DNA of 64,000 nt, from assembly GCA_958296105.1 (NCBI GenBank), contig OY282441.1, forward strand, positions 1,337,800 through 1,401,799, given 5' to 3'. Shown in pieces: positions 38,174 to 45,302 of this stretch (its first letter is position 1; the number at the start of each line of letters is the position of its first letter). The stretch comes from an uncultured Dehalococcoidia bacterium. GTDB lineage: Bacteria > Chloroflexota > Dehalococcoidia > Lucifugimonadales > UBA1123. A program made the translations under genes and the position numbers. The notes under the pieces were generated by a model. It saw only the letters and a program-made list of their open reading frames with translations. It did not search any database and was not told the origin of the DNA.

Positions 38174-40960
38174 TCAATGATAGCACACCGACATATGGGA
38201 TCCGACACGTCGAGAGCGCATCGACTCCGACAGCGCGCGTATCGAATCTGCCGCGCTTCCTTCGAGAATCACGCTCGCGGTTCTGCGTCCTGCAAGTCTC
38301 AGCGCTTCTACATCGCTGTACGCTTGGGCATCTGCCAATGTGCCGAAGTCGAAGCGCTCACCGGGAATGTCCGCGTCCGCGTCGTGGGGCGCGGTCAGAG
38401 CCAGCGCGATGACGTTGTTCGCGCCGCCCTTGTGAAGCTGTCCGGTGGAGTGCAGATAGCGCGGTCCGTATCCCAGAGTGGATACGATGCGATGGTCGCT
38501 CAGAAGCGCCGCCCTCAGCTCGGTCAGAGCCTCGTCTGTCTCGTCCGTCTGGGGTATGTACGCGAGAATGGCGAGGTAGTCGCCGGGTTCGGCGGACTCG
38601 ACCAGATGCGGCAGCGAACCGTGAGGCGTGATCGCTGGGACGCTGCCATCCGACTCGAACCGATCTACTGCCTGCCGAGCGAGGTCTTTGGCCTGCTGAA
38701 CGTTCGGCTGGTCGAACGGGTTTACGCCCATGATCGCGCCCGCCACCGCTATGGCGAACTCCCATCGGTAGAACTCCGCTCCCAGCCCATCGGGTCCGGT
38801 CAAGCTGTCGATCTCATACCGAATTAGCGGATGTCCCGCTGCGACCAGCCTGCCGCACAGCCCATCCACATCGGAGTAGTCGCCCGACAGCTTCAGATAC
38901 ACGAACTGACGATCGTCGCCGTAGCTCTCGACGGAGGCCGGCGGCTCTCCGACCACAGGGACGATGCCGACTCCGTCTTTCCCGAGGCTCTCGGCGACCA
39001 GCTGCTCAGCCCACAGCCCGAACGCGCTCAGGGTGGGCGAGGTGAGTATGGTGAGCTTGTCGCGGCCCGACTGTGCGAGAGCGCCCACTGCCGCCCCAAG
39101 CCACGCGCCCGGGTTGGCTGACGTTTCGATCTGCGGCGCGCACGCGGCTTGCATTGCCACGCCGCCCTCCAGAAGCGCGCGAGTGTCGTATCCAGCGAGC
39201 GCGGCGGGAACCAGTCCGAAGAAGCTCAGCGCCGAGTATCTGCCGCCTATGTCCGGGGGGTTGCGAAATACCCGCCTGAAGCCTTCTGCTCGCGCCGTGT
39301 CGTCCAGCGCGGTGTCGGGGTCTGTCACGGCGACGAAGCGGCGTCCGGCGTTCTCATGTCCCACTGCGTCCGCGACAAGACGCCTGAAGAACCTGTACAG
39401 CGCGTTGGGTTCGATGGTAGCGCCGGACTTGGACGAGACTACGAAAAGCGTTCGCGCGGGGTCTATCGAGTCTGCCACGAACCTGACCTGCGCGGGAATG
39501 GTGGAGTCGAGCGTGATCAGCTCTGGCCAGCCGTCTTGCGGTCCGAAGCACTGCCTGAGCGTCTCCGGGGCGAGACTGCTGCCGCCCATGCCCAGCAGAA
39601 CCACATGCGCCACGCCGTCATCTCGCGCGTCTCGGGCGAATTCTGCCAAGCCGTCTACCTCTGCGAGCATTGTGGAAGCCACGTCCAGCCAGCCGAGCCT
39701 GTCGGCTATCTCGGTCGGGTCTTCGGACCACAGCGTGTGGTCTCTTGCCCATATGCGCGCTACGGCGTCGCGTTCGCTCAGGGACGCCACCGCCTCGTCA
39801 GCGGCGGCTCGCGCTTTTCCCAGCGACGCTCCTGCTGGAGCGGCGCTCTTGGACAGAAGGCGGTCTCTCTTGTCGGAGATGTTATCGAGCAGCTGGTCGA
39901 ACGAGTCGGCGAACGCCTTCACGCCGTCGTGCATGAGCCGAGTGGTAACGGCGTCCATGCTGATGCCTCCGGCTTCGAGGGCTGCCATCGTCTCTCGCGC
40001 CTCGTCCACGTCTTGCTCGATGGTCTCACGCGCCGAGCCATGCTCCAAGAACGCTGCCAGAGTCGCGTCCGGCATGGTGTTCACGGTGTGGGGGCCGATC
40101 AGCGTCTCCACGTAGAGAACGTCGCTGTAGGCTGGGTTCTTGGCGCTGGTGGAAGCCCATAGCGGTCTCTGGACGCGCGCTCCCATCTCGGACATGCGCG
40201 CGAACCTGTCGGCGGCGAATGTCTCCTTGAAGTCTTGGTAGGCGATCTTGGCGTTGGACACTGCCGCCCTCCCCATCAGATCGCGCATGGAGTCGTCTCC
40301 CGCCTGCTCTATCAGCCCGTCCACCGCCGTATCCACGCGGCTTACGAAGAACGAGGCGACGGAGGACACGCGGGACGGGTCCCCGCCCGACGTGATCAGG
40401 TCTTGCAGACCGGTAATGTACGCCTCGCGGACAAGGGCGTACATATCGAGGGAGAATATGAGGGTGACGTTGATGTTGATGCCGTCCGCGATGAGGCTGC
40501 GGATGGCGGGGATGCCCTCCGGCGTGGCTGGCACCTTGATCATGACGTTCGGCCTGTCGAGCGCGGCGAACAGCCTGCGCGCCGCCTCGATGGTGCCTTC
40601 GGTGTCGCGCGCCAAGTGCGGGTTCACTTCGAGCGAGGCGAAGCCGTCCGCGCCGTCCGCAGAGTCGTACACAGGGCGGAGGAGGTCTGCGGCTGCCTGA
40701 ATGTCCTCTATCGCCAGCGCCTCGAACAGGTCGGCCGGGGGCAGTCCCTCCCTCGCGTAGGCGAGAAGGGAAGAGTCGTAGTCGTCGGAAGAGGATATGG
40801 ATTTCTCGAATATGGTCGGGTTGGACGTGAGCCCGGTAACGCCGACGTCTATGAGGCGCTGAAGCTCGCCCGTGTCCATCAGCGAGCGATACATGTTGTC
40901 GTACCAGACGCTTTGGCCCAGCAGACGAAGGTCTTGGATTGGGTCTAGGTGTTCAGACAA
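38174..40960 (-). CDS. tal-pgi: Bifunctional transaldolase/glucose-6-phosphate isomerase
   Basis: This fusion of two sugar-phosphate enzymes joins the pentose-phosphate pathway to glycolysis. Residues 1-370 are transaldolase: VTGLTSNPTIFEKSI, then PNVMIKVPATPEG with Schiff-base Lys142, and SFFVSRVDTAVD. From about 400 on is phosphoglucose isomerase, with LLGMGGSSLAPE, VVSSKSGATIEPNA and a late GGANNVIALAL. Start TTG 40960 has AGGAGG at 8 bases. The last nine residues and the stop come from the copied upstream sequence of the Uma2 duplication, so the native C-terminus appears replaced. Confidence 0.95.
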   Translation of the reverse strand: MSEHLDPIQDLRLLGQSVWYDNMYRSLMDTGELQRLIDVGVTGLTSNPTIFEKSISSSDDYDSSLLAYAREGLPPADLFEALAIEDIQAAADLLRPVYDSADGADGFASLEVNPHLARDTEGTIEAARRLFAALDRPNVMIKVPATPEGIPAIRSLIADGININVTLIFSLDMYALVREAYITGLQDLITSGGDPSRVSSVASFFVSRVDTAVDGLIEQAGDDSMRDLMGRAAVSNAKIAYQDFKETFAADRFARMSEMGARVQRPLWASTSAKNPAYSDVLYVETLIGPHTVNTMPDATLAAFLEHGSARETIEQDVDEARETMAALEAGGISMDAVTTRLMHDGVKAFADSFDQLLDNISDKRDRLLSKSAAPAGASLGKARAAADEAVASLSERDAVARIWARDHTLWSEDPTEIADRLGWLDVASTMLAEVDGLAEFARDARDDGVAHVVLLGMGGSSLAPETLRQCFGPQDGWPELITLDSTIPAQVRFVADSIDPARTLFVVSSKSGATIEPNALYRFFRRLVADAVGHENAGRRFVAVTDPDTALDDTARAEGFRRVFRNPPDIGGRYSALSFFGLVPAALAGYDTRALLEGGVAMQAACAPQIETSANPGAWLGAAVGALAQSGRDKLTILTSPTLSAFGLWAEQLVAESLGKDGVGIVPVVGEPPASVESYGDDRQFVYLKLSGDYSDVDGLCGRLVAAGHPLIRYEIDSLTGPDGLGAEFYRWEFAIAVAGAIMGVNPFDQPNVQQAKDLARQAVDRFESDGSVPAITPHGSLPHLVESAEPGDYLAILAYIPQTDETDEALTELRAALLSDHRIVSTLGYGPRYLHSTGQLHKGGANNVIALALTAPHDADADIPGERFDFGTLADAQAYSDVEALRLAGRRTASVILEGSAADSIRALSESMRSRRVGSHMSVCYH

Positions 40961-41037: not shown

Positions 41038-42240
41038 TCAGGCGACTATCAGGGGTATCTTCATCTCCTGCGGCGAGAGGCCGGAGTGGTGAGAGTTCAG
41101 CTGAACCATCCTGCCGGGGCCGCGCCCTGTGTTGTATTCGAGGACGTTGGCGCCCGAGGAGATGGCGATAAGGTCTCCAAGCCGCTTCCCAGCCTCGTCG
41201 GTGGGCTCGTCGGGGCCGTAGAGTCCGAGCCGAAGCGCGTCATCGACGTCCACGACTATGAACCCGTCTCCGAACCTGCTCTCGAAGTATCTGCGGACGC
41301 GGTCGCGCGCCCAGTCCCAAGTGTGGAGATACATCACGCGGGCATCGCCGGAGGGGTGGAATCTCAATAGCGGATGAAGCCGTCGCGTTGGTCTAAGAGT
41401 GTAGCGGCTGGGGGCGGGCGCGTCCAGAAATCCGTGATCGGCGGTCACCACCACTCGCGCCTTCGACTCGATCGCGGTGCGCAGCCTCCCGATCTGTCTG
41501 TCGACATTGCACAGCGCGTGCCTCACCTCGGGCCTGGTTATCCCGTGCAGGTGCGCGAGGCTGTCCACGTGCGGCACGTACAGGTAGGTGAACGTCTTGT
41601 CGACGGCGGCGGATACGTGGGCGATGGCTATGTCGACGCCACTGGCTAGGGAGGCGTAGCCCTCTGTCCGCCGTCCTCCGCCGAAGTATCTCGAATACAC
41701 CGAGCCGGCTATCCTCTCAGGCACGACTGCCAGAACGTCTCTGGGTATGGATGCCCACATGGACGGGACAGGAAACGCGCGCGCGGGATCTATGCCGCGC
41801 GCGAGCAGATCCTTGTCGTCCGCGCGCGAGGTGTACGCTAGGATGGTGGACGCCGCCCCCAGATCGGGCAGGTGCGTCCACCACCCTGTCACGGCGTGGA
41901 CAGCGGGCCACTCGCCCGTAGTCAGCGAGGTCAGCGCGACCGAAGTGGTGGACGGAAATACGGTCAGCATCTCCTCATGCAGATGGCGCGTGAGGAAGGA
42001 GTGTTTGGGCATGGACTCGATCATGTTCATGCCCACACCGTCCGCCATCACCAGCACGAGATGATCGGTCTCCCCTATGGCTTCCCGTATGTCGGATGCC
42101 ACCGACGAAAGATCGAGAGCGCCGACGCCCGCAAGGCTGGCTACTGCCCTGCCGAGATCGACGAGGTTGGGGCGGTCGTGTTCGGGCGCGACGAGGCTTC
42201 CGGAATCCAGGGCCTCCAGCAGTGAATCCAGTCCGCTCAT
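41038..42240 (-). CDS. Alkaline phosphatase superfamily (type I phosphodiesterase/nucleotide pyrophosphatase) protein
   Basis: This is a two-metal hydrolase of 400 aa. LVLVMADGVGMNMI provides the first metal Asp, and FPSTTSVALTSLTTGEWP holds the Thr/Ser nucleophile. VPHVDSLAHLHG and VVTADHGFLD give the remaining Asp and His ligands. No signal peptide is visible, so it acts in the cytoplasm or is exported by another route. ATG 42240 is chosen; TTG 42249 is possible. Its start region lies inside a directly repeated 70-bp segment seen again at 42351. Confidence 0.9.
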   Translation of the reverse strand: MSGLDSLLEALDSGSLVAPEHDRPNLVDLGRAVASLAGVGALDLSSVASDIREAIGETDHLVLVMADGVGMNMIESMPKHSFLTRHLHEEMLTVFPSTTSVALTSLTTGEWPAVHAVTGWWTHLPDLGAASTILAYTSRADDKDLLARGIDPARAFPVPSMWASIPRDVLAVVPERIAGSVYSRYFGGGRRTEGYASLASGVDIAIAHVSAAVDKTFTYLYVPHVDSLAHLHGITRPEVRHALCNVDRQIGRLRTAIESKARVVVTADHGFLDAPAPSRYTLRPTRRLHPLLRFHPSGDARVMYLHTWDWARDRVRRYFESRFGDGFIVVDVDDALRLGLYGPDEPTDEAGKRLGDLIAISSGANVLEYNTGRGPGRMVQLNSHHSGLSPQEMKIPLIVA

Positions 42241-42424
42241 TCCTCGCAACCGTTCTATGTCACCCTCACCCTAACCCTCTCCCAGGGGGAGAGGGGATCT
42301 AGTGGATACCGGGTTCTCCCTAATACTCTCGCTACGGGGGAGAAGGGGATAGTCCGCTCTTCCTCGCAACCGTTCTATGTCACCCTCACCCCAACCCTCT
42401 CCCAGAGGGAGAGGGGATCCAGTG
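42233..42424. repeat. Direct repeat of about 72 bp with embedded C-rich hairpin element
   Basis: Segments 42233-42305 and 42351-42424 both read AGTCCGCTC-TTCCTCGCAACC, CGTTCTATGTCACCCTCACC and then ACCCTCTCCCA with GGGAGAGGGGATC. CCCTCTCCC pairs with GGGAGAGGG. A decayed version lies between them at about 42318-42350. The first copy includes the start codon of the phosphodiesterase gene. Confidence 0.85.
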
Positions 42425-42502
42425 GTCACACTCTATCTATCAATCTAACTCGATGTTCACACTATCTGTTCCATGTGCGGCTCTTGTTTCAATCTACCAT
42501 GC

Positions 42503-42508
42503 TATCAT
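42503..42508 (+). promoter_or_regulatory. -10-like box at the start of the ACT/GlnE-like gene
   Basis: TATCAT ends 6 bases before ATG 42515. Transcription would start at the ATG itself, and no Shine-Dalgarno sequence is seen. A TTGTTT at 42484 is too close to be a normal -35 box. Confidence 0.4.
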
Positions 42509-42514
42509 GTCTCT

Positions 42515-44857
42515 ATGGGGGCGCGCCTGCTGCCTATCTCTCATCACAGTCTCCGCCGAGTGACGCGAATGGTCCATCGCAGCGAACAAATTCAGACTGA
42601 ACCGGATGCTCTCCGCGCAACGGAGGGGGAACGGGAGGCTCTTCACGTCTTCCAGTCCGAATGGCCTGACGTCAGCGCCTCGCTCGAATCCGAGGACGGC
42701 GCGCTGATTGCGCGGATGCTGAGTGACCTCGAATACGTAGACGACGTGAGGGTTCACGTTTCGGGCGATGCCAAATCTGGCTGGCGCGTCGGCGTGTGCC
42801 TCGCGGATCGGGTGGGAACGCTGTCGCTGGTATCGGGGCTGTGCACTTCAGCAGGGCTGGACATCGTTCGAGCGGACACTTTCAGCGTGGTCATGGACGC
42901 GCAGGCCGCTCGACCATCTCCCAATCGTCTCCAGACGCGCGGGCAGCGCGGCAGCAGCCGCGCACGACTGCGGCAGCCACTGGGCGCGAGGCAAAGCCCA
43001 AGAGAGTGCGCCATCATGCTGTTCGACCTCGTCGCGCGCGCAGGGAGTCAGCCGGACTTGCAGGCGTTCGAGGCGGAGCTGAGGCTGCTGACGAAGCAGG
43101 TCTGGAGCGGGCGGCGCGAAGACGCGCGCTCGTTCGTCATAGACCGGTTCGCGGACGCGCTGCGGGATTCCGAGCAGAATGCCGAAGCGCACATGCCCGT
43201 AAGCATATCCACCGAGACGACGGCGCACGAGAGCCACACGCTCTTGACCATCAACTCCATAGACACGCCCGGCTTCCTGTTCGCATTCTCGAACGCGCTG
43301 TCCAGCCTTCGCGTGAACGTGGCGCGCTCGATGGTGAGAACCGAGGGCAGACATGTTCGAGACGTCTTCTGGCTGGCGCAGCCGTCGGGAGGGAAGATCG
43401 AATCCGAGAGCCAGCTTCGACAGGTGAGGGCGGCGGCGGCGCTCATCAAGCGGTTCATCCACCTTCTGCCGTCCACGCCCGACCCCGGCCAGGCGCTGCG
43501 ACAGTTCAACTCGCTGACGTCTCAGATTCTGGGCAGGCCCGGCTGGGCAGCGGATCTGCGCGGACTGGAGTCGCCGGGCGTTCTGGAGACGCTGGCGGAG
43601 ATGATGGGCGCAAGCCGCTTCCTGTGGGAAGACTTTCTCAAGGTTCAGCGCGAAAATCTCTTTCCGCTTCTGCTGGATGCGGGCGCGCTCGATTACTGTC
43701 CATCCAAGTCCGAGATTCGCGCGGTCGCGCCTTCTGGGATGGGCGACGGCAAGCCATACGGCGAGCGCGTGAGGGCGCTCAACGAGCTGAAAGACCGCGA
43801 GATGTTCAGAGCCGACCTGCGATACATAACGGGCAGGAGCGATCTTCGGAGCTTCGGCGCGGAGCTTACCACGCTTGCCGAAGTGTTGGTGGAAGAGGCG
43901 TTCGCGCTGGGTATGGAATCGGCGCGGGAGAGGTTCGGGGCGGCGCGGCGCGCCGACGGCGCGGAGTGTGGATGGGCAATCTTCGCGCTGGGCAAGTTCG
44001 GCGGCAGGGACATGGGCTTCGGCTCGGACATCGAGCTTCTGTTCGTCTATGAGTCGGAGGGGGAGACGGACGGACGCCAGCGGGCGCAGACGTCCACGTG
44101 GTTCGAGGTGGCGATCAGGGAGTTCCTGCGCGCGCTCGAAACGCGGCAGCAGGGGATATTCGAGGTGGACATGCGCCTGCGCCCCTACGGGAGCAATGGG
44201 CCTCTGGCGTCTTCGCTCGCCGCCTTCGAGCATTACTATGGGGCCAACGGCGACGCGCGGCAGTTCGAGCGGCTGGCGCTGGTTCGAGCGCGCGCCGTCG
44301 CCGGAGACGAGCGCATCGCCGCGCGCGTGATGCGCGTCCAAGAGTCTTTCGTCTACTCAGCCGCTCCGCTCGATCTTGGAAACATCCGCCATCTGCGCGG
44401 GCGTCAGGCGGACGAGCTGGTTGGGCGGGGCGCGCTCAACGCGAAGCTGAGCGCCGGCGGCCTGGTGGATATAGAGTACTGCATTCAAGCGTGGCAGATA
44501 GCACGTGGGCGAGACGACCCAAGCCTGCGCCTAGCCAACACGCTGGACGCGGTGGACGCGCTGCGCCGCGCTGGGCATCTCTCGGAGGACGTGGCTGCGG
44601 GTATAAGCGAGTCTTACGTATTCCTGCGCGAGCTGATAGACGCTCTGCGGGTGGTGCGAGGCAGCGCCAAAGACTTGGACATTCCCCCAGCGGGGTCAAG
44701 GGAGTTCCGCTATCTGGCGCACCGAATGGGGGTCTCGCCTCCGTCTCGTCTGCAAGAGTCGATCTCTGCCCACATGGAGCGGTCGCGCCGAGTGTGGGAT
44801 CGGCTGCCGGCGGGGCGCGGCGTCACGAGGATGGATGACGATAGCGGTCGCGGATAG
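42515..44857 (+). CDS. ACT-ACT-GlnE-like nucleotidyltransferase fusion
   Basis: This 780-aa protein looks like a glutamine-synthetase-adenylyltransferase relative with added sensors. An ACT-like repeat lies near 75-130 (GVCLADRVGTLSLVSGL), and a second near 240-300 (INSIDTPGFLFAFSNAL), similar in style to the GlnD C-terminus. The nucleotidyltransferase domain begins WAIFALGKFGGRDMGFGSD, where GSDIELLFVY has Asp-x-Glu instead of Asp-x-Asp. VDMRLRPYGSNG supplies the third acid and GGLVDIEYCIQAWQ the GlnE helical motif. Only one catalytic half is present, whereas GlnE has two. It probably modifies a nitrogen-control protein in response to amino acids; target unknown. Confidence 0.82.
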   Translation: MGARLLPISHHSLRRVTRMVHRSEQIQTEPDALRATEGEREALHVFQSEWPDVSASLESEDGALIARMLSDLEYVDDVRVHVSGDAKSGWRVGVCLADRVGTLSLVSGLCTSAGLDIVRADTFSVVMDAQAARPSPNRLQTRGQRGSSRARLRQPLGARQSPRECAIMLFDLVARAGSQPDLQAFEAELRLLTKQVWSGRREDARSFVIDRFADALRDSEQNAEAHMPVSISTETTAHESHTLLTINSIDTPGFLFAFSNALSSLRVNVARSMVRTEGRHVRDVFWLAQPSGGKIESESQLRQVRAAAALIKRFIHLLPSTPDPGQALRQFNSLTSQILGRPGWAADLRGLESPGVLETLAEMMGASRFLWEDFLKVQRENLFPLLLDAGALDYCPSKSEIRAVAPSGMGDGKPYGERVRALNELKDREMFRADLRYITGRSDLRSFGAELTTLAEVLVEEAFALGMESARERFGAARRADGAECGWAIFALGKFGGRDMGFGSDIELLFVYESEGETDGRQRAQTSTWFEVAIREFLRALETRQQGIFEVDMRLRPYGSNGPLASSLAAFEHYYGANGDARQFERLALVRARAVAGDERIAARVMRVQESFVYSAAPLDLGNIRHLRGRQADELVGRGALNAKLSAGGLVDIEYCIQAWQIARGRDDPSLRLANTLDAVDALRRAGHLSEDVAAGISESYVFLRELIDALRVVRGSAKDLDIPPAGSREFRYLAHRMGVSPPSRLQESISAHMERSRRVWDRLPAGRGVTRMDDDSGRG

Positions 44858-45302
44858 ACGGCGGCACGGATTCAGGACGTCGGCGGCCGCGGATGATGGT
44901 GACGATGTTCAGTATGACCGGAACGGCGTTGGCTGCGATCATTGCGCCCGTGACGATACCGCGCAGCTCCGGGATGCCGGGCATACCTGACATGATGTAT
45001 ACCGTCTTTCCGTACTGAAGCCCTAGCCAGCTGCCGATGAAAGTGACTGCCAACGCGATTAGGAATCGCGTCCAGAGAGAGCGGGCGGGCAGCTCCAGCA
45101 TGAAGTTGCCCACCGAGCCGCCGAATCCAGCCCCCAAGCTGATGGCGATTATCGCCATTATCCTGTCTGTCGTGGGCGTGGGGATGAAGAACGAGAGCAG
45201 CACGAGCCGCCCGAAAGCCCAGCAGACCAGCCCCAGCGTACCGGAGAAGAACAGGTTCACGCATATTCGGAAGATGAATGCGGCAACGCCTACCGATGGC
45301 AA
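44823..45302 (-). CDS. Hypothetical membrane protein, 159 aa
   Basis: No family is recognised. Four hydrophobic helices are seen, including FFSGTLGLVCWAFGRLVLL, IMAIIAISLGAGFGG and FLIALAVTFIGSWLG, with a short basic tail. TTG 45302 is the longest start; an internal ATG at MAIIAISLG is possible. It follows the DppC-type permease by 18 bp once that gene's frameshift is corrected, and its end overlaps the convergent ACT/GlnE-like gene by 35 bp. Confidence 0.65.
   Translation of the reverse strand: MPSVGVAAFIFRICVNLFFSGTLGLVCWAFGRLVLLSFFIPTPTTDRIMAIIAISLGAGFGGSVGNFMLELPARSLWTRFLIALAVTFIGSWLGLQYGKTVYIMSGMPGIPELRGIVTGAMIAANAVPVILNIVTIIRGRRRPESVPPSIRDRYRHPSS

Follow-up and report, generated by a model that had tools for sequence, protein, structure and literature searches.

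The window, the 64,000-nucleotide stretch of DNA analysed here, encodes a protein in which two ACT domains precede a single catalytic half of the GlnE type. We think it probable that the product is a one-half, glutamine-sensing glutamine synthetase (GS) adenylyltransferase, equipped with its own tandem ACT sensor and independent of PII uridylylation. The layout is not private to the source genome and makes up the C-terminal part of a longer protein with the order GlnE half-ACT-ACT-GlnE half. A limited literature search found no paper on GlnE joined to an ACT domain, and the full-length ACT-GlnE apparently is a GlnE variant that is not unique and, within the reach of that search, undescribed.

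The reading frame (42473-44857, plus strand) is open from ATG 42473, and ATG 42515 is an alternative start. A leaderless start at 42515, suggested in the preliminary description, is possible but not favoured, since the same-genus homologs begin about 54 nt further 3'. From the -10-like element listed in Table 1, transcripts would instead begin around 42515 and carry some 54 nt of leader ahead of ATG 42569; a consensus promoter scan of the shared intergenic region found no full sigma-70 site. Relatives of the product share 51-54% identity with it within the genus and 45-46% in other families. At the other end of the gene, a small membrane-protein gene (44823-45302, minus strand) overlaps the GlnE gene 3' end to 3' end and has peptide ABC permease genes on its other side; a similar downstream gene occurs in L008 and L009.

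Table 1. Features of the ACT-GlnE locus, in window coordinates (residues counted from ATG 42569).
Feature	Position	Strand	Remarks
PF01663 type I phosphodiesterase/nucleotide pyrophosphatase, candidate eraser	41038..42249	-	PF01663 E=1.3e-19, 71.4 bits vs 23
Intergenic region common to the divergent GlnE and PF01663 genes	42250..42568	.	-10-like TGCTATCAT at 42500-42508
ACT-ACT-GlnE half protein CDS	42569..44857	+	Likeliest start ATG 42569, 762 aa; same-genus homologs start there
ACT domain 1	42749..43105	+	Residues 61-179; beta-alpha-beta-beta-alpha topology
Arg-rich insert splitting ACT domain 1	42902-42994	+	Residues 112-142; low-confidence, disordered in model
ACT domain 2	43196..43474	+	About residues 210-302; Pfam ACT 2e-7, AF2 models
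Helical N-terminal part of GlnE catalytic half	43484..43936	+	Residues 306-456
Nucleotidyltransferase core	43937..44368	+	Pfam, AlphaFold, fold match to E. coli GlnE
C-terminal helical module (GlnD_UR_UTase)	44375..44800	+	Residues 603-744; PF08335 E=4e-11, AF2

Profiles, structure prediction and fold comparison all bear out the earlier claim that the N-terminal third holds two GlnD-like ACT segments. Pfam ACT (PF01842) matches the ORF product in two stretches (E=2e-7), and NCBIfam GlnD models span the pair (TIGR01693 at residues 35-316, 1e-12; PRK05092 at residues 224-321, 9e-18). The AlphaFold model, built from 14 aligned sequences (pLDDT 81, pTM 0.74), contains two ACT folds and one GlnE half. 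The ACT folds occupy residues 61-179 and about 212-302 from ATG 42569 (79-197 and 230-320 when counted from 42515), overlapping the positions at which they had been expected (75-130 and 240-300 in the latter numbering); modelling the ACT region by itself gave the same folds. The N-terminal third is closest to aspartate kinase, the threonine dehydratase regulatory domain and plant ACT-like domains. ACT domain 1, split by an Arg-rich insert whose length differs between relatives, superimposes on the ACT-like 9c7n with a Z of 8.2 (rmsd 1.4 over 76 residues), and the pair aligns with aspartate kinase 3l76 at Z 11.5-12.1. ACT domain 2 matches the ACT folds of PGDH, aspartokinase and Rel, and by hhalign it aligns with residues 811-873 of E. 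coli GlnD (E=5e-5, probability 66%). The beta-alpha-beta-beta-alpha fold and the sequence kinship with the GlnD ACTs thus identify a tandem of the GlnD type; that VIA-align listed no GlnD structure carries no weight. Like GlnD, the protein combines tandem ACTs of this type with a pol-beta type nucleotidyltransferase. Unlike GlnD, it has the ACTs N-terminal to a GlnE-type catalytic half, and neither Pfam nor NCBIfam matched an HD domain in it, so the layout is not that of GlnD. HMM matches to HTH_OrfB and beta-lactamase were weak and were discounted.

The remainder of the protein is, as first described, one catalytic half of GlnE plus the helical module, and PF03710 (E=5e-43; 147.7 bits against a curated cut-off of 24), PF08335 and the model agree on this. 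Its closest solved folds by VIA-align are the halves of E. coli GlnE (1v4a, Z 39.6; 3k7d, Z 37.7), with which it shares the nucleotidyltransferase half and helical module, and the source genome also has a GS with the target Tyr. It differs from E. coli GlnE in having one half and not two, a tandem ACT in front, and SDxEL in place of SDxDL. We therefore file it as a GlnE variant, outside bifunctional GlnE: it has one PF03710 stretch, whereas bifunctional GlnE has two (the N-terminal removing and the C-terminal transferring AMP), and it scores far under the cut-offs of the NCBIfam bifunctional-GlnE equivalogs that match this part (PRK11072, 210.6 bits vs 487; PRK14109, 184.5 vs 625).

The second catalytic acid in the GKFGG..SDIEL motif (43991-44038) is indeed Glu, as had been pointed out, but the changed activity that had been read from it does not follow. 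The catalytic acids Asp487, Glu489 and Asp534 are invariant in the 14 aligned sequences and form a D-x-E variant of the three-acid nucleotidyltransferase site. Asp-x-Glu is the natural motif of active enzymes among the ANT(4')/kanamycin nucleotidyltransferases, and PDB titles among our fold matches read 'E52D mutant of ANT-4', so that the wild type has Glu. Because Glu is invariant in the lineage, Asp534 is retained and Asp-x-Glu occurs naturally in ANT(4'), SDIEL is no argument for lost activity. SDxEL marks the lineage as a whole and is not a lesion.

Full-length ACT-GlnE proteins of about 1,150-1,260 aa occur in some Chloroflexota and Planctomycetota. Judging by gene content, the host may be a member of Chloroflexota, probably of the class Dehalococcoidia (SAR202-like), and Chloroflexota is used here for the phylum of the window. 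Relatives of the window gene were found in 8 of 251 genomes sampled across its phylum, its own included. The long form, present in four of the eight Chloroflexota carriers and about 1,180-1,260 aa in length there, consists of an N-half with GKLGGxELNYSSDIDL (GKHGAEELNYSSDIDL in the protein of G282), two ACTs and a C-half with SDIEL; a Planctomycetaceae genome encodes the same full-length layout. These proteins (L012, L016-L019, L153, L154 and L157) share the ACT-ACT-GlnE(C) segment, including SDIEL, with the window protein at 32-41% identity and retain at the N-terminus the SDIDL-bearing GlnE half that is missing from the window protein. Several are encoded beside glnA. In Chloroflexota, glnA adjoins the full-length gene in three of four genomes, on the same strand in G194 and divergently in G274 and G282, and in G282 an ammonium transporter gene (amt) comes after it. 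Among 99 Planctomycetota genomes, eight have relatives covering the ACT region at least in part, among them one half-size form, and in 28 further genomes GlnE was matched essentially outside that region.

The eight half-size proteins (window, G001-G003, G025, G035, G195 and G211) form one clade (support 100/98) that joins the C-halves of full-length ACT-GlnE at 100/100, and both together fall on the side of the C-terminal domain (AT-C) of E. coli GlnE (90/91). E. coli GlnE adenylylates with its C-terminal domain and deadenylylates with its N-terminal domain (PMC12409994). From these relationships, the half-size form appears to have arisen by loss of the N-terminal, deadenylylating half from a longer parent. 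The source genome has only this one GlnE-type gene, which means that no N-half is encoded at another place in the assembly. The AU test speaks against a recent internal duplication as the source of both halves in the ACT lineage (p-AU 0.034). Two other half-size ACT-GlnE forms, L020 in G072, a remote member of the window's phylum, and L159 in a planctomycete (G385), may belong together, to judge from their motifs and not from a tree.

When compared with E. coli GlnE domain by domain, the window half is closer to the N-terminal one (Z 39.6 vs 37.7; phmmer 5e-39 vs 5e-24; hhalign aligned it to N), and its grouping with that half was not rejected (p-AU 0.109). Both observations favour an enzyme that is a deadenylylase, or that works reversibly by phosphorolysis, with the ACT pair switching AMP removal. 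We consider this unlikely. By position and phylogeny the half corresponds to the C-half of full-length ACT-GlnE, the SDIDL signature is common to E. coli N and the N-half of the full-length proteins, and a deadenylylase with no adenylylating enzyme to go with it would make little sense; the genome encodes no other GlnE.

The other nitrogen control genes of the genome bear on what the enzyme acts upon and what it senses. There are three glutamine synthetases, and only one of them, a GSI-beta (2289349-2290770), has the adenylylation Tyr loop (DLYDLSPEEA, matching NLYDLPPEEA of E. coli); this loop, encoded in the same genome, indirectly suggests GSI-beta as the AMP target. GSI-beta is present in 12 of 13 carriers of the gene against 7 of 20 non-carriers (Fisher test without correction for kinship, p=0.0014), the sole carrier without it being G001, a 100-contig assembly. 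The Tyr loop was also considered as a marker of GlnE carriage and rejected, as none of the GSI-beta enzymes read to the C-terminus has lost it, whether the genome carries GlnE or not. The window gene is not adjacent to glnA in the source genome.

A PF08335 profile search that covered the source genome and a set of Chloroflexota carriers detected no GlnD. The single PII gene of the source genome adjoins amt, and its T-loop (GRGAQRGVVHTGRSGQ) lacks a Tyr at the position of E. coli Tyr51, as do those of G001-G003; no PII match was obtained in the carriers G147, G282 and G072. Tyr51-less T-loops are general in the lineage (L005 and L134-L136 in G000-G003; L138-L141 in G025, G039, G007 and G005); in the last four genomes the PII is of a different type, which carries the motif GVEVFTGRGG. 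Since GlnD is missing, PII lacks Tyr51 and some carriers have no PII match, uridylylation signalling of the E. coli type, with a GlnD and a uridylylatable PII, is unlikely in the source genome as far as profile searches tell. The PII that is present could act without uridylylation. The GlnD ACT pair is held to sense glutamine, and we infer that the ACT pair of the window protein would be the simplest remaining sensor. The earlier suggestion that amino-acid sensing is joined directly to adenylylation, bypassing PII, is thus supported in part, and is probable, by the missing GlnD, the Tyr51-less PII and the one GS with a Tyr loop.

A GlnD-type tandem ACT pair in a genome that has no GlnD could also point to a functional replacement of GlnD, the target being PII or another protein and not GS. 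We regard this as quite improbable, because the PII of the genus has no T-loop Tyr, some carriers show no PII match at all, the catalytic half is GlnE-like and not GlnD-like, and the full-length relatives lie beside glnA. A further reading, that the solitary half is what remains of a decaying bifunctional GlnE and has lost any sharp regulatory function, seems very improbable: the protein is half-size, apparently through loss of the N-half, and its distribution is patchy (absent from each of the four further genomes searched in the window's family, one of which has an in-frame stop in its PF01663 gene), but the catalytic acids and core are intact at 45-55% identity across several families, and the ACT pair and the divergent neighbour are kept.

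For a GS adenylyltransferase speak the GlnE fold and family, the grouping with the C-halves, glnA beside the full-length relatives and the association with GSI-beta; against it stand the closer likeness to the E. coli N domain, the Tyr loop in relatives that do not have the gene, the presence of a PII, and a position away from glnA. Under this preferred reading, plentiful glutamine would be bound by the ACT pair, which would then stimulate AMP transfer from ATP to the loop Tyr of GSI-beta and so lower GS activity. AMP might be removed by the same catalytic site working in reverse or, more speculatively, by hydrolysis, with the PF01663 phosphodiesterase of the divergent gene standing in for the missing deadenylylating half. 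We infer this function, the ligand and the eraser role, with glutamine suggested by GlnD homology alone.

The predicted metal ligands of the PF01663 protein (D70, D229, H233, D271, H272 and H388) are invariant in the alignment and conserved as in the family, and reading of its sequence revealed no obvious signal peptide. Every one of the eight genomes of the half-size clade, which span several families, has the gene for this protein close to its half GlnE: in seven the two are divergent neighbours, and in the remaining one a single gene separates them. Since the half GlnE has a single origin on the tree, this neighbourhood represents one event long kept and not eight independent ones. PF01663 genes do not lie beside the full-length genes of Chloroflexota, and none was found beside the half-size form of G072. 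Elsewhere in the order, PF01663 relatives occur without GlnE, beside purE/purB or amt-glnK, so the role of this protein is not exclusive to the half GlnE; an exclusive phylogenetic pairing of the two genes was likewise rejected, as several genomes of the order have a related gene without GlnE. Most GlnE-less relatives separate on the PF01663 tree (89/99), while those of G005 and G006, which belong to the window's family and retain the gene without GlnE, fall among the GlnE-adjacent ones. The G005 copy (L060, 3488-4687) has an in-frame TGA and is either a pseudogene or affected by a sequencing error. After the phosphodiesterase gene comes an ORF of 928 aa (38174-40960, minus strand) that looks like a transaldolase fused to glucose-6-phosphate isomerase; G005 and G006 have a similar gene near theirs.

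Snake venom phosphodiesterase belongs to the same superfamily as the PF01663 enzymes. It was with the venom enzyme that AMP was first released from GS, in vitro (PMC12409994), and RNase Z has recently been reported as a stand-alone deAMPylase (PMC12663964). Given these two precedents, the PF01663 phosphodiesterase as a hydrolytic eraser of GS-AMP is a reasonable but unproven idea. A complete GS loop free of PII uridylylation, in which the ACT half senses glutamine and writes AMP and a dedicated PF01663 phosphodiesterase erases it hydrolytically and not by phosphorolysis, is a tentative and somewhat doubtful extension of it.

In the textbook bicyclic cascade, glutamine is read by GlnD and the signal passes through PII to GlnE and on to GS adenylylation. 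With a GlnD-type ACT pair fused to an adenylyltransferase, no GlnD and a PII without Tyr51, this cascade appears to be condensed in a single protein. Should the phosphodiesterase encoded next to it indeed erase AMP, GS would be served by a hydrolytic eraser that is a separate protein, and stand-alone deAMPylases are only now gaining recognition (PMC12663964).
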